Shown here: positions 589-37,310 of the stretch, piece by piece
Layout of the letters: each line of letters opens with the position of its first letter
How positions within the stretch are numbered: the first letter of the stretch is position 1
DNA from: Promethearchaeota archaeon
Lineage (GTDB): Archaea > Asgardarchaeota > Lokiarchaeia > Sigyniarchaeales > SOKP01
Direction: 5' to 3'
Length of the DNA stretch: 38,553 nucleotides
Assembly: GCA_004524535.1 (NCBI GenBank)
Contig: SDNY01000022.1
Coordinates: forward strand, 1-38,553
Notes under the pieces: model-generated
Seen by the model: the letters and a program-made list of their open reading frames with translations, nothing else
What the model was told of the DNA's origin: nothing
Databases searched by the model: none
Translations under genes and position numbers: made by a program

Positions 589-3500
589 ATGATAAAAAAG
601 CTAAAAACAAAAATAGTAGTAATTTTTGTGTTATTCTTAATTGGAATTGCAGCATCAATCATCTCAACAACTTTCTCTGCTGATGTTGCCGCAGGGTCCA
701 AGAAAGCAGGCTCCTTAAGCACACCATATTCTAATGGAGCGACCTATGGTTGGATGTGGATGTCAGGGAATAAAACCATAAATCAAAATGGTATATATGG
801 CGAGAAGGGAGTTCCTGATATGGCGAATTATCCAGGAGCCAGAACTAGGTCTGTTTCTTGGAGGGATACGGACGGAAATTTTTGGTTATTCGGAGGTTAT
901 GGTTATCCCCAATCAGGTGGAGATGGGCATTTGAATGACCTCTGGAGGTTTACCCTCACCTCAAAGGAGTGGGCGTGGATGTCAGGGAATAAAACCATAA
1001 ATCAAAATGGCGTATATGGCGAGAAGGGAGTTCCTGATATGGCGAATTATCCGGGAGGTAGATGGAGGTTTGTTTCTTGGACGGATACGGAAGGAGATTT
1101 TTGGTTATTCGGAGGAACTGGTTATGCCGAATCAGGTGGTGAGGGTTATTTGAATGACCTCTGGAGATTTAACATCACCTCAAAGGAGTGGGCGTGGATG
1201 TCAGGGAATAAAACCTTAAATCAATATGGCATATATGGCGAGAAGGGAGTTCCTGATATAGCGAATTATCCGGGAGCTAGATACACTTCTGCTTCTTGGA
1301 CGGATACGGAAGGAAATTTATGGTTATTTGAAGGTTTTGGTTATGCCGAATCAGGTGGTACTGGGCGGTTGAATGACCTCTGGAGATTTAACATCACCTC
1401 AAAGGAGTGGGCGTGGATGTCAGGGAATAAAACCTTAAATCAATATGGCATATATGGCGAGAAGGGAGTTCCTGATATAGCGAATTATCCGGGAGCTAGA
1501 TCTTTTTCTATTTCTTGGACGGATACGGACGGAAATTTTTGGTTATTTGGAGGTTATGGTTATACCGAATCAAGTGGTGATAGGTGGCTGAATGACCTCT
1601 GGAGATTTAACATCACCTCAAAGGAGTGGGCGTGGATGTCAGGGAATAAAACCATAGATGAATATGGCGTATATGGCACGAAAGGGAATCCTGATATGGC
1701 GAATTATCCGGGAGCTAGAGGGAATTCTGTTGTTTGGACGGATACGGATGGAAATTTATGGTTATTCGGAGGTTATGGTTATGCCGAATCAGGTGGTCTT
1801 GGGTGGTTGAATGACCTCTGGAGATTTAGCATCACCTCAAAGGAGTGGGCGTGGATGTCAGGGAATAAAACCATAAATCAAAATGGTGTATATGGCGAGA
1901 AGGGAGTTCCTGATATGGTGAACTATCCGGGAGCTAGATCCGCTTCTGTTTCTTGGACGGATACGGACGGAAATTTCTGGTTATTCGGAGGTGATGGTTA
2001 TGCCGAATCAGGTGGTACTGGGCGGCTAAATGACCTCTGGAGATTTAAACTTGGCTGTGCTGAAGAATCGCAACCAGATGGAGCAACCTATGGTTGGACG
2101 TGGATGGTAGGGGATAAAAACATAGATCAATATGGTGTATATGGCGAGAAGGGAGTTCCTGATATGGCAAATTATCCTGGAACTAGAGAGAGATCTGTTT
2201 CTTGGATGGATACGGACGGAAATTTTTGGTTATTCGGAGGTGAGGGTTATGCCGAATCAGGTAGTTATGATCGGCTGAATGACCTCTGGAGATTTAACAT
2301 CACCTCAAAGGAATGGGTGTGGATGTCAGGGAATAAAACCACAGTTGAACATGGTGTATATGGCGAGAAGGGAGTTCCTGATATAGCGAATTATCCGGGA
2401 GCTAGATGGAGTTCTGTTTCTTGGACGGATACGGATGGAAATTTTTGGTTATTCGGAGGTGATGGTTATGCCGAATCAGGTGGTAATGGGCGGCTGAATG
2501 ACCTTTGGAGATTTAACATCACCTCAAAGGAGTGGACGTGGATGTCAGGGAATAAAACCACAGGTGAACATGGTGTATATGGCGAGAAGGGAGTTCCTGA
2601 TATGGCAAATTATCCAGGAGCTAGATCTTTTTTTGTTTCTTGGACGGATACGGACGGAAATTTTTGGTTATTCGGAGCTCTTGGTTATGACGAATCAGGT
2701 GGTTATGGGCATCTGAATGACCTTTGGAGATTTAACATCACCTCAAAGGAGTGGGCGTGGATGTCAGGGAATAAAACCATAAATCAAAATGGTATATATG
2801 GCGAAAAGGGAGTTCCTGATAGGGTGAATTATCCAGGAGGAAGAGAGAGATCTGTTTCTTGGACGGATACGGACGGAAATTTTTGGTTATTCGGAGGAAT
2901 TGGTTATAACGAATCAGGTGATTATGGGCGGCTGAATGATCTTTGGAGATTTAACATCACCTCAAAGGAGTGGGCGTGGATGTCAGGGAATAAAACCATA
3001 AATCAAAATGGTGTATATGGCGAGAAGGGAGTTCCTGATATAGAGAATTATCCGGGAGGTAGAGTCGATTCTGCTTCTTGGACGGATACATATGGAAATT
3101 TATGGTTATTCGGAGGTTATGGTTATGCCGAATTAGGTGGTAATTGGTGGTTGAATGACCTCTGGAGATTTAACATCACCTCAAAGGAGTGGGCGTGGAT
3201 GTCAGGGAATAAAACTACAGGTGAACATGGCGTATATGGCGAGAAGGGAGTCCCTGATATGGCGAATTATCCGGGAGCTAGATCCGCTTCTGCTTTTTGG
3301 ACGGATACGGATGGAAGTTTATGGTTATTCGGAGGTTTTGGTTATGCCGAATCAGGTGGTGTTGGGCGGCTGAATGACCTCTGGAGATTTAAAGATTCTA
3401 TTGCTCCATATATCATGATTATTGAGCCTAGGTATAATAAATTATTTAATGCGACGGCTCCTTCATACAACTTAACCTTTATTGATGCTCATTTAGATGA

Positions 3501-6500
3501 TACATGGTATCGGCTCTGGAATGGTACTGAGTGGTCAATAAATTATACTATTCCGGGTTTAGGCTCAGAAAGAACCGGACAAATCAATCAAGATGCTTGG
3601 AATGACTGTCCGAATGGTACTGTCGTTATCGAATTCTATGCGAATTATACCTTCGGCAATTTGAGGATGAATTCTACAACGGTTAGGAAGGATATTCTGG
3701 GACCTTTAATAACTATTAATGATCCTGCTCCAAATGAATTATTTTTATTTAAAGCTCCAGATGACACGGATTGTGATGTAATTTTTAGTGATGTAAGGGG
3801 TATTGATGCTCGATGGCACATGCTAATAAATGCCACAGACAGCAATCACTATACGAACAATTATACGTGGAATGATGAAGTTAATCAGACTGCTTGGAAT
3901 CAAATGGGCAATGGAACTGTTATCATCCGTATTTTTGCGAATGATTCATCGGGGTACATTGGAATGGCAGAAGTTACTGTAAGAAAAAATATTGTAGACC
4001 CATTTATTTCTATTACTAAACCCGATTCAAATGATATTTTCGGGAATAATACAATGAATTTCACAATTTCAGTGTCGGGAAAAGACCTAGATACCATTTG
4101 GTATATGCTAATAAACGGAACAAACAGTAATGATTATACCAACAATTTAACATATTCTAAGACCGTCGTTGCAGGAGAAATTGAAGATACAATTCAATAC
4201 AATTTATGGAATCAATTTGAAAATGGGACGGTTATTATTCGATTCTTCTTGAACAGAACAAACGGAGTGATGGCGTTTGATGATGTTTTAGTGAGAAAAG
4301 ATATTTTGGGACCTTTAATAACTATTAATGCTCCCACTCCAAATGAATTATTTTCCTCAACCGCACCAGGCTTGGCAGATTGCGATGTAATTTTTAGGGA
4401 TGGGAGTGGTATTGCTGCTCGATGGTATATGCTCATAAATGGAACGGATAATACGGACTATACTAATAATTACACTTGGAATGACGAGGTGGATCAATTC
4501 GTCTGGGATTATATGGATAATGGATTTGTTATCATCCGAATTTTTGCGAATGATTCGTTAGGTTACATTGGAATGGCAGAAGTAACCGTAAGGAAAGATA
4601 TTCATTTACCAAGTAATGGAGCGCCCTATAGTTGGGCGTGGGTGTCAGGGAAAAAAACCACAGATGAACCTGGCGTATATGGCACGAAGGGAGTTCCTGA
4701 TATGGCGAACTATCCGGGAGCTAGATACGGATCTGTTTCTTGGACGGATACGGACGGAAATTTTTGGTTATTCGGAGGTTCTGGTTTGAATGACCTCTGG
4801 AGATTTAACATCACCTCAAAGGAGTGGGCGTGGATGTCAGGGAATAAAACCAAAAATCAATGGGGCGTATATGGCACGAAGGGGGTTCCCGATACGGCGA
4901 ATTATCCGGGAGCTAGAGTATGGTCTGTTTCTTGGACGGATACGGACGGAAATTTTTGGTTATTCGGAGGTTCTGGTTATGACGAATCAGGTGGTTCTGG
5001 GTCTTTGAATGACCTCTGGAGATTTAACATCACCTCAAAGGAGTGGGCATGGATGTCAGGGAATAAAAATATAAATCAAAATGGCGTATATGGCACGAAG
5101 GGAGTTCCTGATATGGTGAATTATCCGGGAGGTAGATGGAGTTCTGTTTCTTGGACGGATACGGACGGAAATTTATGGTTATTCGGAGGTTCTGGTTATC
5201 CCGAATCAGGTGGTGCTGGGCGAATGAATGACCTCTGGAGATTTACCATCACCTCAAAGGAGTGGGCGTGGATGTCAGGGAGTAAAACCTTAGGTGATTA
5301 TGGCGTATATGGCACGAAGGGAGTTCCTGATATGGCGAATTATCCGGGAGTTAGACGGGGATCTGTTTCTTGGACGGATACGGACGGAAATTTATGGTTA
5401 TTCGGAGGGTATGGTCGTGCCGAATCAGGTGGTGGGCAGCTGAATGACCTCTGGAGATTTACCATCACCTCAAAGGAGTGGGCGTGGATGTCAGGGAATA
5501 AAACCGTAAATCAAGGTGGTGTATATGGCACGAAGGGAGTTCCTGATATGGCGAATTATCCGGGAGCTAGACACTCTTCTGTTTCTTGGACGGATACGGA
5601 CGGAAATTTTTGGTTATTCGGAGGTTCTTATAGGAATGACCTCTGGAGATTTACCATCACCTCAAAGGAGTGGGCGTGGATGTCAGGGAATAAAACCGCA
5701 AGTGAATATGGCGTATATGGCACGAAGGGAGTTCCTGATATGGCGAATTATCCGGGAGGTAGATACGGTTCTGTTTCTTGGACGGATACGGACGGAAATT
5801 TATGGTTATTCGGAGGTTGGGGTTATGCCGAATCAGGTTTTGATGGGCAGCTGAATGACCTCTGGAGATTTAAAAATTCTATTGCTCCACATATCACGAT
5901 TATTGAGCCTAGGTATAATAAATTATTTAATGCGACGGCTCCTTCATACAACTTAACCTTTATTGATGCTCATTTAGATGATACATGGTATCGCCTCTGG
6001 AATGGTACTGAGTGGTCAATAAATTATATTATTCCGGGTTTAGGCTCAGAAAGAACCGGACAAATCGATCAAGATGCCTGGAACGACTGTCCAAATGGTA
6101 CTGTCGTTATCGAATTCTATGCGAATGATACCTTCGGCAATTTGAGGATGATTTCTACAACGGTTAGGAAGGATATTCTGGGGCCTTTAATAATTATCAA
6201 TAGTCCTGCTCCAAATGAATTATTTTCATTTAAAGCTCCAGATGACACGGATTGCGATGTAATTTTTAGTGATGTAAGTGGTATTGATGCTAAATGGCAT
6301 ATGCTAATAAATGCAACAAATAGCAATCACTATACGAAAAATTATACGTGGAATGATGAAGTTAATCAGACTGCTTGGGAACAAATGGGGAACGGGACCG
6401 TCATTATTTGGATTTTCGCCAATGATTCTCTTGGTAATATCGGGATGGCAGAAGTGATCGTACGAAAGGATATTGAATTACCAAGTATCGTTATTAATGA

Positions 6501-8220
6501 TCCTACTTTAAATGATATTTTCGGCGTGAATACTTTCAATTTCACAATTACGGTTTCGGGAAAAAATCTCGATACCATTTGGTATATGCTAATAAATGGT
6601 ACAGACAGTAATGATTATACCAATAATTTAACATATTCTAAGACCGTCGCTTCTGGTTCAATTGAAGATATGATTAATTATAACCTCTGGAATCAATTTG
6701 AAAATGGAACGGTTATTATTCGATTCTTCTTGAATAGAACGAACGGATTGATATCATTTGATGATGTTTTAGTGAGAAAAGATATAATAGCTCCTGATAT
6801 CATGATAATTGAGCCAGGATATAATAAATTATTTAATGCGACAGCTCCTTCCTACAATTTAATCTTTATTGAAGCTCATTTAGATGATATATGGTATCGG
6901 CTCTGGAATGGTACTAATTGGTCAATAAATTATACAATCGGGGGTTCAGGTTCTCAGAGATTGGGGCAGATAAACCAAGATGCATGGGATGACTGCCCGA
7001 ATGGTACCGTCATTATTGAATTCTATGCGAATGATACCTTAGGCAATTTGAGGATGAATTCTACAACTATTAGGAAGGATATTCTGGGGCCTTTAATAAC
7101 TATTAATGAACCCACTCCGAATGAATTTTTTTCCTCAACCGCACCAGGCTTGGCAGATTGTAATGTTCTATTTAGTGATGGGAGTGGTATTGATGCTCGT
7201 TGGTATATGCTCATAAATGGAACGGATAACACAGACTATACTAATAATTACACATGGAATGAAGAGGTGGATCAATTTGTCTGGGATTATATGGATAATG
7301 GTACCGTCATCATCCGTATTTTTGCGAATGATTCATTAGGTTACATTGGAATGGCAGAAATTATTGTAAGGAAAGATATTTTAGGACCGATAATAAATAT
7401 CAATGATCCTACTCCGAATGAATTATTTTCCTCAACCGCACCAGGCTTGGCAGATTGTAATGTTCTATTTAGTGATGGGAGTGGTATTGATGCTCGATGG
7501 TATATGCTCATAAATGGCACGGATACCACGGACTATACTAATAATTACACCTGGAATGGCGAGGTGGATCAATTCGTCTGGGACTATATGGATAATGGTA
7601 CCGTCATCATCGTTATTTTTGCGAATGATTCGTTAGGCAACATTGGAAGGGCAGAAATTATTGTAAGGAAAGATATTGAATCGCAACCAGGTGGGCAAAT
7701 TCCCGGTGATGATGATGACGATGATGATGACGATGATGATGACGATGATGATGGAATAATAATAATAATAATAATAATCTGTTTCGGTTCTGTAAGTGGT
7801 ATTGCTGCTACTTCTTTATATTATAAACAACACAGAAATAAAAATTTATATAATAAGCCACACAGAAATAAAAAAGCTAAATCAATTCTTAAAAGAAAAT
7901 TTCAAGAATCTAACAAAATTTTCCCTTCTACTCCATCTTCTAAAGAAATCTTAATGGAACTAACTAATAAAAACTTATTACGCCAAATATTTGATACAAA
8001 AAAGATCAAAAAAATTAATGCTATATTAGATAATATATTAGATAATATCGATTTAACTGCGGTATCTGACGAGTTTCTAAGAAAATTGGATTCTTTAAAG
8101 GTAGACAATGAAGAAAAAAGAGAATTTCTTAAAGAAATGCTGCTTTTTTCTCCCGAAGAAAGAAATGAAATTCTTGATAAGATCTTAAAAAGAGTTAATT
8201 CTTATTCTGAAGGCGAATAA
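589..8220 (+). CDS. Giant secreted membrane-anchored kelch-propeller / Ig-like repeat protein
   Basis: A 2543-residue surface protein. Residues 1-31 form a signal peptide or signal anchor (basic start, then VVIFVLFLIGIAASII). Eighteen kelch-like blades of about 70-75 residues follow, each with W-A-W-M-S-G-N-K-T, V-Y-G, NYPG-A/G-R, SWTDTDGN, LWLFGG and LNDLWRF. They fall into three groups of six at about 53-486, 500-934 and 1343-1760, consistent with three six-bladed propellers. Two blocks of Ig-like modules of about 100 residues (four at 936-1340, six at 1762-2364) end in VRKDI and carry many N-x-S/T sequons. The C-terminus has 15 Asp residues, an Ile-rich membrane helix (about 2389-2410) and a basic cytoplasmic tail of about 130 residues. 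The likely role is cell-surface adhesion, glycan or ligand binding; the ligand is unknown. The next frame (8189-8929) may be its true C-terminus. Confidence 0.9.
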   Translation: MIKKLKTKIVVIFVLFLIGIAASIISTTFSADVAAGSKKAGSLSTPYSNGATYGWMWMSGNKTINQNGIYGEKGVPDMANYPGARTRSVSWRDTDGNFWLFGGYGYPQSGGDGHLNDLWRFTLTSKEWAWMSGNKTINQNGVYGEKGVPDMANYPGGRWRFVSWTDTEGDFWLFGGTGYAESGGEGYLNDLWRFNITSKEWAWMSGNKTLNQYGIYGEKGVPDIANYPGARYTSASWTDTEGNLWLFEGFGYAESGGTGRLNDLWRFNITSKEWAWMSGNKTLNQYGIYGEKGVPDIANYPGARSFSISWTDTDGNFWLFGGYGYTESSGDRWLNDLWRFNITSKEWAWMSGNKTIDEYGVYGTKGNPDMANYPGARGNSVVWTDTDGNLWLFGGYGYAESGGLGWLNDLWRFSITSKEWAWMSGNKTINQNGVYGEKGVPDMVNYPGARSASVSWTDTDGNFWLFGGDGYAESGGTGRLNDLWRFKLGCAEESQPDGATYGWTWMVGDKNIDQYGVYGEKGVPDMANYPGTRERSVSWMDTDGNFWLFGGEGYAESGSYDRLNDLWRFNITSKEWVWMSGNKTTVEHGVYGEKGVPDIANYPGARWSSVSWTDTDGNFWLFGGDGYAESGGNGRLNDLWRFNITSKEWTWMSGNKTTGEHGVYGEKGVPDMANYPGARSFFVSWTDTDGNFWLFGALGYDESGGYGHLNDLWRFNITSKEWAWMSGNKTINQNGIYGEKGVPDRVNYPGGRERSVSWTDTDGNFWLFGGIGYNESGDYGRLNDLWRFNITSKEWAWMSGNKTINQNGVYGEKGVPDIENYPGGRVDSASWTDTYGNLWLFGGYGYAELGGNWWLNDLWRFNITSKEWAWMSGNKTTGEHGVYGEKGVPDMANYPGARSASAFWTDTDGSLWLFGGFGYAESGGVGRLNDLWRFKDSIAPYIMIIEPRYNKLFNATAPSYNLTFIDAHLDDTWYRLWNGTEWSINYTIPGLGSERTGQINQDAWNDCPNGTVVIEFYANYTFGNLRMNSTTVRKDILGPLITINDPAPNELFLFKAPDDTDCDVIFSDVRGIDARWHMLINATDSNHYTNNYTWNDEVNQTAWNQMGNGTVIIRIFANDSSGYIGMAEVTVRKNIVDPFISITKPDSNDIFGNNTMNFTISVSGKDLDTIWYMLINGTNSNDYTNNLTYSKTVVAGEIEDTIQYNLWNQFENGTVIIRFFLNRTNGVMAFDDVLVRKDILGPLITINAPTPNELFSSTAPGLADCDVIFRDGSGIAARWYMLINGTDNTDYTNNYTWNDEVDQFVWDYMDNGFVIIRIFANDSLGYIGMAEVTVRKDIHLPSNGAPYSWAWVSGKKTTDEPGVYGTKGVPDMANYPGARYGSVSWTDTDGNFWLFGGSGLNDLWRFNITSKEWAWMSGNKTKNQWGVYGTKGVPDTANYPGARVWSVSWTDTDGNFWLFGGSGYDESGGSGSLNDLWRFNITSKEWAWMSGNKNINQNGVYGTKGVPDMVNYPGGRWSSVSWTDTDGNLWLFGGSGYPESGGAGRMNDLWRFTITSKEWAWMSGSKTLGDYGVYGTKGVPDMANYPGVRRGSVSWTDTDGNLWLFGGYGRAESGGGQLNDLWRFTITSKEWAWMSGNKTVNQGGVYGTKGVPDMANYPGARHSSVSWTDTDGNFWLFGGSYRNDLWRFTITSKEWAWMSGNKTASEYGVYGTKGVPDMANYPGGRYGSVSWTDTDGNLWLFGGWGYAESGFDGQLNDLWRFKNSIAPHITIIEPRYNKLFNATAPSYNLTFIDAHLDDTWYRLWNGTEWSINYIIPGLGSERTGQIDQDAWNDCPNGTVVIEFYANDTFGNLRMISTTVRKDILGPLIIINSPAPNELFSFKAPDDTDCDVIFSDVSGIDAKWHMLINATNSNHYTKNYTWNDEVNQTAWEQMGNGTVIIWIFANDSLGNIGMAEVIVRKDIELPSIVINDPTLNDIFGVNTFNFTITVSGKNLDTIWYMLINGTDSNDYTNNLTYSKTVASGSIEDMINYNLWNQFENGTVIIRFFLNRTNGLISFDDVLVRKDIIAPDIMIIEPGYNKLFNATAPSYNLIFIEAHLDDIWYRLWNGTNWSINYTIGGSGSQRLGQINQDAWDDCPNGTVIIEFYANDTLGNLRMNSTTIRKDILGPLITINEPTPNEFFSSTAPGLADCNVLFSDGSGIDARWYMLINGTDNTDYTNNYTWNEEVDQFVWDYMDNGTVIIRIFANDSLGYIGMAEIIVRKDILGPIININDPTPNELFSSTAPGLADCNVLFSDGSGIDARWYMLINGTDTTDYTNNYTWNGEVDQFVWDYMDNGTVIIVIFANDSLGNIGRAEIIVRKDIESQPGGQIPGDDDDDDDDDDDDDDDGIIIIIIIICFGSVSGIAATSLYYKQHRNKNLYNKPHRNKKAKSILKRKFQESNKIFPSTPSSKEILMELTNKNLLRQIFDTKKIKKINAILDNILDNIDLTAVSDEFLRKLDSLKVDNEEKREFLKEMLLFSPEERNEILDKILKRVNSYSEGE
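745..2046 (+). repeat. Kelch-type propeller 1 (six repeats)
   Basis: Six tandem repeats of roughly 210-225 bp encode blades 1-6. Conservation is high at the DNA level too: the stretch encoding S-K-E-W-A-W-M-S-G-N-K-T is nearly identical from unit to unit, and the starts of units 3 and 4 are almost the same. A short linker (KLGCAEESQPDG, nt 2047-2084) with a Cys separates this set from the next. Confidence 0.85.
2086..3390 (+). repeat. Kelch-type propeller 2 (six repeats)
   Basis: Six further tandem units (blades 7-12), opening with a divergent first blade (WTWMVGDKN) and ending in LWRFK just before the first Ig-like block. The same core words recur as in propeller 1. Confidence 0.85.
3391..4610 (+). 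repeat. Ig-like module block 1 (four modules)
   Basis: Four modules of about 100 residues share the plan I-x-I-x-x-P-x-x-N-x-x-F ... WY-x-LING ... NYTW ... NGTVII-R-I/F-FAN ... VRKDI. Two module types are visible (those with W-Y-R-L-W-N-G and those with W-Y/H-M-L-I-N), and they recur in block 2. An Ig or fibronectin-like beta sandwich is inferred from pattern only. Confidence 0.7.
4617..5871 (+). repeat. Kelch-type propeller 3 (six repeats)
   Basis: Six units mostly of the VYG-T-K-G-V-P-D subtype, whereas propellers 1 and 2 mainly use VYG-E-K-G-V-P-D. Two units (blades 1 and 5 of the set) lack the GYxESGG loop and are about ten residues shorter. The E/K versus T/K split suggests that units are homogenised within a propeller. 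Confidence 0.85.
5877..7680 (+). repeat. Ig-like module block 2 (six modules)
   Basis: Six modules of about 100 residues. The first two are close copies of the first two modules of block 1 at both protein and DNA level, and the last two modules of this block are near-identical to each other. This points to segmental duplication of a propeller-plus-Ig cassette. Confidence 0.7.
7708..7779 (+). repeat. Asp-tract and Ile-tract trinucleotide repeats
   Basis: Codons GAT/GAC give 15 Asp residues in a regular GAT-GAT-GAT-GAC pattern, then GGA, then seven ATA and one ATC codon giving eight Ile. The acidic run directly abuts the membrane helix. A second gene at 21446-22012 has the same arrangement. 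Such tracts can change length by slippage. Confidence 0.9.
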
Positions 8221-34355: not shown

Positions 34356-34694
34356 TCACTCTCCTTCTTGGATTGATTTTATTAGACATTTCCCGATATA
34401 GCCGAGAAAATGCGTCACATTCCCGTTATGGTAGTCGATTATTACAAGCTTTTCTTTAATCTTCTTCTGGTTGGCAAGACTTAAGCTTTCAAACATTTCG
34501 GTTATTACTTTAATGGGCATAAGGTGGTGCATGTTACTGTCGTCAAAAAACTCTATGATTTTATCATCCAAATTCTTTTCTTCGACGAATCGGTTTAACC
34601 AACTAATGATTTCTGAGGATTCCTCAAACTCGGTTTCCCAGCTATCATCAATAATAAGAATAATAATATCTTTTCTCCAAAATAATTGATTGAT
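34356..34694 (-). CDS. Unknown acidic helical protein, 5' end unclear
   Basis: From a TTG at 34571 the product has 71 residues (..DKIIEFFDDSNMHHLMPIKVITEMFESLSLANQKKIKEKL...). The frame is open to 34694 and the extra part (IIDDSWETEFEESSEIISWLNRFVEEKNL) is just as coding-like, so the protein is probably about 110 residues. No ATG, GTG or TTG lies in that extension. No family recognised. It is coupled by TGA-ATG to the truncated gene downstream. Confidence 0.45.
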   Translation of the reverse strand: MNQLFWRKDIIILIIDDSWETEFEESSEIISWLNRFVEEKNLDDKIIEFFDDSNMHHLMPIKVITEMFESLSLANQKKIKEKLVIIDYHNGNVTHFLGYIGKCLIKSIQEGE

Positions 34695-35319
34695 TTATTT
34701 TAACCTGTACAAAAGTGGTTTTTGCTCCTTTCCAATTTAATTAGAAAAGAAGAAATAGAAAAAATAGATTTGATTTTAAATTTAAAAAAATTAGAGAAAA
34801 TGGATTTGATTCTATGCGTGTAGGCGTATTTCAAGTTATCTCTCTTTATTTTTTTATTTTTTTCTCTCTTTCTTTTTTATTCTTTTTCTATCATGAGCAA
34901 AAAAAATTAAGATGGGTATATTCTCTAAAAAAAGATCTTCACTCTATGCACAATCATCCCGACCATACACAATATACAATACACTACACCACGCCAAAAG
35001 CCTTTGAAAGATGTAGTCAATAGCTATTGAAAATAGCTATCATTGGATCTCTCACGATTAACGGTTTAAAAGGCTTCACTATGGAGATATTAATTACATA
35101 ATGAGGGCACATACTATATATTTGGCGTAAAAATGAAGGGTCTTGGTGAAGTCTTCAACTTATCGACTAATCATTATATCTAATCAGAATTTCCCTTAAA
35201 GAAAAATCGGTAAAACTCTGAATTTATCTTTAGGGGAAAATCAGAGTAAATTAAGATAAGTGATAATAAAATAAAAAAAATATAAAAAAAAAAAAAGTGT
35301 TTTCAATTATTTTTCAAGT
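34695..35319. other. Gene-free region with nested inverted repeats
   Basis: No gene is convincing. Arms AAGCCTTT (34999-35006) and AAAGGCTT (35069-35076) enclose a hairpin of ATAGCTAT (35020-35027) and ATAGCTAT (35033-35040). This could be a structured RNA or a cruciform site. A further inverted repeat at 35215-35247 is listed separately. Confidence 0.4.
35215..35247. repeat. Inverted repeat ACTCTGA / TCAGAGT, 3' of the PCNA gene
   Basis: Arms 35215-35221 and 35241-35247, about 70 bp beyond the PCNA stop. The same arms occur at 36731-36765, just beyond the next minus-strand gene. Confidence 0.6.
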
Positions 35320-36516
35320 TTAAAAATCCTCGTCTTCATCAAAATCATCATCATCAAATTCAGCCTCGCTAGGTCTAGGGGCGAGAAAAACCTTCATTTC
35401 AGTATTATCTAACTCCTTAAATTTCATATATGTATTTAAGGGGTGATCGGTCTTCACGCTAAAATCTACTGTATCTCTTTTAGATAATATCTCGGACATT
35501 TTGCCTATCTGCTTTAAAAAGGTAAAAGAATACGCGCCACAACATTCTTTTTTCTGTAGCATATTCTCCAATATGGTTTTACTGCTCAACGATAACTCCC
35601 CGTCTTTGAGCTCTTCTTTAATAGGACTTAAATCAAAATAAAGGTTCTTAATGTTGTTTTTCTTCCAAATAATGTCCCCTTCTCCCAGTTGTCCTTCCTC
35701 CGAGAAGCTAATTTCATTTGGTCTGACCTTAATCGTTATGATTTCGCTGTATAAATCCATATTCCTTAAGACATACTCTAACTTGGAAGGGGAGATCGAA
35801 AACCCGGACGGGTAAACTATTCCTGAAACCATTTCTATGGGTACTTCTTCCATATCAAGATCTAAGGGTTGTAGGGTTCTGTTGATGGTGGAATTGTATT
35901 CTCTGGATTTAATGGTTATATAGAGGCGATCTTCTGCAAAAGTTAAGGTCGTCTGTGAATTATCGGTGCTATTACATTTGATTAGCTTTTGAAGATCATC
36001 AAGATTGATGCCTAATTTGCCTTCTCTTAAAAATTGATAAGATTTGCCTCTTAGTTCTATGTGAAATAAACAGATTCTTGAAGGATCCATAACAGCTATT
36101 TTGATATAGTCTTTTGTGGCCATGAATTCTATCTCGTCTATAATTGAGCTAAAAATTCTAAAAAAATTGTGCAAGGGATAAGAAGGAAAAGAGATTCTGC
36201 AAAATGCATTCTTATTTATCAGCAACTCCAATCTCCCCTGTAAATCTCTTAAAAACTTTTTCTTTCTCTGGATGATTTCCTTTGGTTTGATAAATGAATA
36301 TTCGGTAAAAATGGCGTCTAATTTAGAATTAATCTCGCTTGAGAATCTTTTCTGGAAGGTGCTGGTCTTCTCTACGAAGATAGAGGAGGATGATTTTTTA
36401 TTATAGGAAAAAAGTAGAGCGTCGAGCTTTTCGCTAAGCTCTTTGTCCTGCTCTCCTTTTTCCGCTAAGTCTGCCCAATAACTATCCTTTTCTGCTTCAA
36501 CCATTTTTCTGATCAT
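35320..36516 (-). CDS. Divergent PCNA-like sliding clamp with N-terminal extension and acidic tail
   Basis: A 398-residue protein. Residues about 104-385 follow the PCNA plan: LHNFFRIFSSIIDEIEFMATKDYIKIAVMDPSRICLFHIEL, then GINLDDLQKLIK, the interdomain-connector-like LQPLDLDMEEVPIE, SISPSKLEYVLRNMDLYSEIITIKV, and CCGAYSFTFLKQIGKM with VKTDHPL in the last part. PCNA is a trimeric ring around DNA that tethers polymerases and other PIP-box proteins. Usual length is about 250. Here about 100 charged helical residues precede the clamp and a tail of Asp/Glu (DDDDFDEDEDF) ends it. It is probably not the housekeeping clamp and may belong to a mobile element. The promoter TATA-like box is at 36581. 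Confidence 0.82.
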   Translation of the reverse strand: MIRKMVEAEKDSYWADLAEKGEQDKELSEKLDALLFSYNKKSSSSIFVEKTSTFQKRFSSEINSKLDAIFTEYSFIKPKEIIQRKKKFLRDLQGRLELLINKNAFCRISFPSYPLHNFFRIFSSIIDEIEFMATKDYIKIAVMDPSRICLFHIELRGKSYQFLREGKLGINLDDLQKLIKCNSTDNSQTTLTFAEDRLYITIKSREYNSTINRTLQPLDLDMEEVPIEMVSGIVYPSGFSISPSKLEYVLRNMDLYSEIITIKVRPNEISFSEEGQLGEGDIIWKKNNIKNLYFDLSPIKEELKDGELSLSSKTILENMLQKKECCGAYSFTFLKQIGKMSEILSKRDTVDFSVKTDHPLNTYMKFKELDNTEMKVFLAPRPSEAEFDDDDFDEDEDF

Positions 36517-36730: not shown

Positions 36731-36765
36731 TACTCTGAATTCTCCCAATTGTAAAATTCAGAGTA
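36731..36765. repeat. Inverted repeat TACTCTGAATT / AATTCAGAGTA, 3' of the winged-helix gene
   Basis: Perfect 11-bp arms with a 13-base loop, starting 9 bp beyond the stop of the minus-strand gene at 36774. It shares its arm sequence with the repeat at 35215-35247. It could be a terminator or processing hairpin, or mark the boundary of a cassette. Confidence 0.7.
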
Positions 36766-36773
36766 AAAATAAA

Positions 36774-37310
36774 TCACGCAAAACTATCCTTAAAGAATTT
36801 AGAAAGGTGTTCATATATAAAATCTGTGGTTGAGCTGGTCAAATCCTCCAATAATGCGTTGTCTATGTTAGACTTGGGGATATAATCGCTTAAAGAATCC
36901 TTAATTGAACTCTTTAAAGGGGTATAAATTTGACTAATGAATTTTTCCATAAGTTTTTCAAAATCCTTTCTTACAGGAAGATTTTTTTTTACCTCTTTTT
37001 TTTGGGGTGTTTTTTGTCTTTGAATTTCAAGTGGGGGTTGTATGATATGATTGTTAAGTAAGTGTGTAAGGAAGTCGATATATCTTTGAGCTTTCCTTAT
37101 TCCTTTGGGAGTTATTTGAATAATGCTGAAATATTTCTTACTTTCTGGTTTCTGGATTAATCCCTTTTTCTCATTGATCTTTAAACATTGGGATAGCTGA
37201 CTTTTTCCTAAGGGTAAAAGCTCTTGGAGTCTTCTAAAATGGATTATGTCTTTTTTATCTCTTAATTTACAAAGACTAATTAAGACAATTATTGGGGTGT
37301 TAAAGTTCAT
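36774..37310 (-). CDS. Winged-helix transcriptional regulator
   Basis: A 178-residue DNA-binding protein. Residues 1-75 are a MarR/PadR-like winged helix (DIIHFRRLQELLPLGKSQLSQCLKINEKKGLIQK... wing ...ITPKGIRKAQRYI). A basic linker (RQKTPQKKEVKKNLPVRKD) and a helical C-terminal part (EKLMEKFISQIYTPLKSSIKDSLSDYI) follow, probably for dimerisation or a partner. Three GTTTA-N7-TAAAC palindromes lie over its promoter (37332-37414), so autoregulation is likely. The PCNA gene follows 257 bp downstream on the same strand with its own promoter. Confidence 0.8.
   Translation of the reverse strand: MNFNTPIIVLISLCKLRDKKDIIHFRRLQELLPLGKSQLSQCLKINEKKGLIQKPESKKYFSIIQITPKGIRKAQRYIDFLTHLLNNHIIQPPLEIQRQKTPQKKEVKKNLPVRKDFEKLMEKFISQIYTPLKSSIKDSLSDYIPKSNIDNALLEDLTSSTTDFIYEHLSKFFKDSFA

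Follow-up and report, generated by a model that had tools for sequence, protein, structure and literature searches.

The window, meaning the whole 38,553-nt stretch analyzed here, is contig C65 of a 3.66-Mb Asgard genome (G000) that is 99.1% complete. Its minus strand carries an open reading frame at 35320–36516, open through 398 codons, that encodes an N-terminally extended PCNA paralogue; named relatives of the gene belong to MAGs of Lokiarchaeia. Because family members align from Met5 onward, translation probably starts at 36504, leaving the first four residues (MIRK) untranslated. The Pfam model PCNA_N matches residues 119–222 above its cut-off (E = 3.7e-7), PCNA_C falls just below (E = 1.5e-4, 22.4 bits vs. 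a cut-off of 23), and all matches shown in a comparison with PDB sequences are clamps.

A recognizable clamp core preceded by about 100 helical residues had been described in the original prediction, and structure modeling bears out both. The AlphaFold2 monomer model (mean pLDDT 82.2) comprises helices at residues 3–39, 52–70, and 78–101, followed by a complete two-domain clamp. A first model, built from four sequences, had a pLDDT of 60.7, and the addition of one viral-contig PCNA raised it to the final value. Residues 105–384 superpose on solved PCNAs with a Z score of 28.5 and an RMSD of 2.0 Å over 242 residues, residue 105 falling on residue 1 or 2 of the solved structures. The clamp core (residues 105–384; 35365–36204, minus strand) has the full two-domain PCNA fold in the model. 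The preceding three-helix domain (residues 5–104; 36205–36504, minus strand) is recognized by alignment, profile search, and the model, and is present in six of the seven family members. No significant homolog of this domain was found by sequence among solved structures (best E = 0.052); whole-model fold searches were filled by PCNAs, and the negative result for the N-terminal domain therefore rests on the sequence search. By that comparison the domain is new, with no known homolog found. A further addition, which the original prediction did not mention, lies in clamp domain 2 (residues ~290–325; 35542–35649, minus strand). Alignment and model place this insertion of approximately 35 residues after the strand bearing a conserved Trp (residue 284), with two short helices modeled at 297–304 and 310–322. 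In the window copy each of the four inner helices has at least one Lys or Arg, as positioned by alignment and not in a ring model. The protein ends in an acidic tail (35323–35364, minus strand).

The same genome encodes two further PCNAs: a standard one of 267 residues on contig C72 and another extended paralogue on contig C45. The window clamp is not the housekeeping clamp of its genome, since a separate canonical PCNA exists, and the expectation that it would not be the only clamp is borne out. The housekeeping PCNA (C72) is 39% identical to the window clamp and shares with this subtype the clamp fold, the ligand loop, and the acidic tail, but it lacks the N-terminal domain and the domain 2 insertion, and its outer interface strand is acidic. 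Standard PCNAs of relatives are likewise without the N-terminal extension, which is accordingly not a regular part of the lineage's housekeeping clamps, as had been anticipated. The acidic tail had also been taken as unusual for PCNA. That claim fails: 24 of the 26 standard Lokiarchaeal PCNAs listed end in a complete acidic tail, the other two being cut by contig ends, and the tail was discarded as a distinguishing mark. Identity between the two extended copies is 72%, and both are intact; at a dN/dS of 0.17 between them, the coding sequences indicate that the extended clamp is under purifying selection. Their synonymous divergence is 0.48 in the N-terminal domain vs. 1.36 in the core, and gene conversion may lie behind this inequality.

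Upstream of the window clamp gene lies a 178-residue ORF (36774–37310, minus strand), a possible regulator. The proposal of a private regulator stands in so far as the ORF is there and a search of 68 genomes found one weak relative outside its own genome. The regulator part is less secure, as the winged-helix matches are below threshold (HTH_34, 22.8 bits vs. a cut-off of 27). A conserved upstream regulator was considered and is not claimed: the winged-helix-like ORFs align poorly, and the ORF on C45 has no HTH Pfam match. The inverted repeats noted previously are present as two similar hairpins of ~34 nt each (35215–35248 and 36731–36765, minus strand), found with a pattern expected 0 times by shuffling. 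Since each sits just downstream of a stop codon, that of the clamp gene and that of the 178-residue ORF, they resemble 3'-end hairpins, and their reading as the ends of a mobile element is not favored.

Beyond the clamp gene, 34359–34661 (minus strand) holds a truncated copy of a 152-residue gene that also follows the extended clamp on C45 (88–89% amino acid identity). The intervening spacer (34665–35281) is 81% identical to C52:25224–25819, with shorter matches on other contigs. Pieces of this cassette recur in the genome (C45, C52, C191, C188, C114, C90, C189, C105, and others); a segment that is mobile or has been duplicated repeatedly would fit this pattern of matches. Neither a transposase nor an end structure was found to explain the repeated cassette. 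The 152-residue gene (also at L036:2267–2725) encodes N-terminal cysteines; copies or pieces of it occur on C45, C188, C65, C191, C105, and C187, and matches were found in two of 67 other genomes searched. The other neighbors of the window clamp are metabolic or structural genes. Elsewhere, positions 589–8220 of the window encode a 2543-residue protein consisting largely of kelch-type repeats.

Searches of 227 Asgard genomes with a profile of the N-terminal domain identified six full-length members in five genomes. A full-length profile run over the same genomes brought in one more, that of G052, in which the N-terminal domain is missing. The total is seven ORF-length members in six of the 227 genomes (G000, with two copies, G004, G013, G020, G052, and G053), all within the family of 65 genomes to which the window genome belongs. 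Weak matches to the N-terminal domain (E = 1e-4 to 1e-2) were treated as chance helical matches, and the count leaves out G022:C3 (E = 2.3e-6), G049:C46 (E = 6.3e-7), G010:C1, and a partial match where the G020:C11 contig ends. In a maximum-likelihood tree of 37 rows, several on long branches, the extended clamps form one clade with support of 100/99. Scores with core profiles separate this family from canonical PCNAs (164 vs. 29.5 bits in the case of the G052 member, which was outside the training set). The extended clamps are a separate, lineage-specific family of accessory PCNA paralogues with an extra domain. At least eight decayed remnants were also found, in G018, G062, G010, G026, G017, G043 (two), and on C105 of the window genome, the last being 47 nt long and 94% identical. 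Canonical PCNAs of G000 and G004, which belong to the same genus, are almost identical (branch sum about 0.012), whereas their extended clamps are 33% identical; this pattern is that of an accessory gene, moving horizontally or rapidly replaced.

A normal PCNA coexists with the extended clamp in five of the six host genomes, the exception being G052, where the divergent family member is the only PCNA found. As a separate observation, searches with PCNA_N and the extended clamp found no canonical PCNA in G015, G016, G035, G036, G037, G041, and G052; these assemblies include one that is 99% complete (G015) and one in a single contig (G037), and gaps in the MAGs are possible.

The alignment shows that basic residues are kept in the four clamp helices of the extended family. 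The loop that holds ligand peptides in PCNAs matches the canonical one in G000 and G053, less closely in G013, and has diverged in G004, G020, and G052, the same three members that lack the acidic tail. The outer strand, presumably one side of the subunit interface, has a net charge of −4 to −8 in the five housekeeping clamps used for comparison, −3 in a viral PCNA, and −6 in two element-borne PCNAs; in the extended family it is near neutral (−2 to +4), with a Trp in six of seven members. Because the clamp fold is kept, as are basic residues of the inner helices and, for the window subtype, the ligand loop, the extended clamp most likely forms a ring of its own kind, apart from the normal clamp.

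Restriction enzymes directly adjoin three of the seven members. In G004 the clamp gene lies 73 nt downstream of McrC on the same strand, in the order two DrmMI/IIG-like methylases, DrmD-like helicase, McrB, McrC, clamp, GmrSD, and then, farther on, a TmtA-like gene and a second DrmD-like helicase; the island spans ~30 kb. It also contains, at L040:13507–18972, a gene for an 1821-residue protein that matches nothing in Pfam or PADLOC at the thresholds applied. The G020 clamp is divergent from a Type IIG-like enzyme, which is followed by a PLD-SNF2 helicase, and in G052 a Type ISP specificity domain lies 127 nt upstream of the clamp. A C-terminal clamp remnant in G018 directly follows, and abuts, a defence-type ATPase resembling NsnB, HEC-03B, and AriA. 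No PADLOC model matches the clamp itself, and on the stretches read no defence neighbors were evident for the other four members (both G000 copies, including that of the window, G053, and G013), part of these assignments being judged by eye.

Among the 227 genomes McrC occurs at 17 places in 16 genomes. Within the 65 family genomes it occurs at five places, Type_ISP_C at six places in five genomes, GmrSD at 11 places in eight, and Eco57I in all 65. The extended clamp stands beside McrC at one of the 12 McrC places inspected, and no family clamp was found at the 11 others; the inspection covered all McrC places but those of G171 (two), G221, G106, and G148. The chance of three of seven members immediately adjoining McrC, Type_ISP_C, or Eco57I genes is 5e-6 in a rough binomial estimate that sets each genome at 3,400 genes with nine Eco57I places, gene counts being approximate, and 0.004 with a generous 5% background. 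As the defence category was picked after the loci had been seen, the estimate is only suggestive of an adjacency beyond chance. In the three members next to restriction enzymes the tail and much of the ligand loop are gone, and one of the three is without the N-terminal domain; their mode of action may therefore not be that of the window copy.

Extended clamps were sought on viruses and plasmids, where the original prediction had pointed; the 50,697 phage records, the IMG/VR viral contigs, and the 72,556 plasmids searched held none. The one PCNA that the plasmid search returned is of the ordinary kind; it lies on P-10H_0, a plasmid from an uncultured archaeon, where it is followed by a wHTH gene and Orc/Cdc6 and TFIIB genes (L155:5944–13089). 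Mobile elements of this lineage do encode PCNAs. The 115-kb viral contig IMGVR_UViG_3300032046_000005 carries an ordinary PCNA 60% identical to the canonical clamp. Like the window clamp, this protein and that of P-10H_0 are extra PCNAs in the same lineage, but both lack the N-terminal three-helix domain and cluster with normal clamps. The viral-contig locus L130:6001–11112 encodes an Asgard-type PCNA, a NUMOD3/GIY-YIG protein, and a DnaG-like primase. An element-like contig (L051:2409–4266) has two tandem PCNA genes, the second of which (347 residues) is very divergent with a cysteine-rich N-terminal stretch.

A clamp is as a rule an essential part of replication that evolves slowly. We tentatively read the extended protein as something else: an accessory sliding clamp with its own ring, recruited to anti-element DNA targeting and not to replication. 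What we infer in this reading is that the clamp forms a ring, that it is orthogonal to the normal clamp, and that it serves in defence. The extended clamp would assemble its own ring around DNA, with the N-terminal helical domain and the domain 2 insertion supplying private partners. Gene order makes restriction enzymes the best candidates, and our best guess at these partners would be the enzymes with which anti-element systems target DNA (McrBC, Type ISP, Type IIG-like), which the clamp might tether to, or license on, DNA being copied. An anti-element role, as originally suggested, is thus plausible from the restriction neighbors at related loci; such neighbors do not occur at the window locus itself, and a defence partnership for the window copy would follow by kinship with those loci only. 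In a more specific and less probable version, the clamp is dedicated to immunity, its separate ring bringing McrBC, Type ISP, and IIG enzymes to invader-replicated DNA, possibly by sensing or mis-pairing with invader PCNAs.

The repeated cassette pieces, the plentiful remnants, and the ordinary PCNAs on element-like contigs, one viral contig, and one plasmid could instead mark the extended clamp as selfish or element-derived, that is, as cargo, or as what is left of plasmids or viruses that integrated and once brought a replication clamp of their own, for which defence islands are landing sites. We consider this unlikely, though still a real contender, because element-borne PCNAs group with normal PCNAs outside the extended clade (the second L051 copy, on a long branch, being of unsure placement), no replication genes were recognized near the extended clamp, and the phage, viral, and plasmid records searched hold no extended member. 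The suggested mobile-like behavior is supported by the two copies and the 47-nt remnant in one genome, the patchy distribution, and the remnants elsewhere; that a known virus, phage, or plasmid carries the clamp is not supported. A specialized repair or alternative-ring subunit would enter a heteromeric ring with the normal clamp, as in crenarchaeal PCNA paralogues and the eukaryotic 9-1-1 clamp, and redirect repair enzymes. Coexistence with a normal PCNA agrees with such a subunit, as does the resemblance of the window subtype to the normal clamp in ligand loop and tail. Yet a gene so patchily present (six of 227 genomes) and prone to decay does not look like a core repair factor, and the outer interface strand has lost acidic residues kept by all normal PCNAs compared; we rate this slightly below an origin from elements. 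That the gene is a functionless, decaying duplicate might be supposed from the truncated neighbor gene and the many remnants in relatives, but with both copies intact and a dN/dS of 0.17 it is very improbable.

To our knowledge, no crenarchaeal PCNA1, 2, or 3 has a 100-residue helical N-terminal domain. The crenarchaeal paralogues are core genes, stably inherited, unlike the patchy extended clamp. The crenarchaeal PCNA1/2/3 heterotrimer, as far as described in the portion of PMC4894655 available, is like the window genome in that an archaeal genome has more than one PCNA gene. McrBC, GmrSD, Type ISP, and Type IIG systems are direct gene neighbors of three members, but neither PCNA nor a sliding clamp, as a subunit of restriction systems or otherwise, is mentioned in the available main text of two Asgard/archaeal defence surveys (PMC11291487, PMC12988326). 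The available part of a paper on sliding-clamp evolution (PMC8357120) does not mention Asgard, and no description of a defence-linked or N-terminally extended Asgard PCNA was found in the literature searches. If the accessory-clamp reading is true, part of the replication toolkit has been drafted into genome conflict in relatives of the eukaryotic ancestor, and McrBC and the clamp of G004 provide a concrete, testable set.
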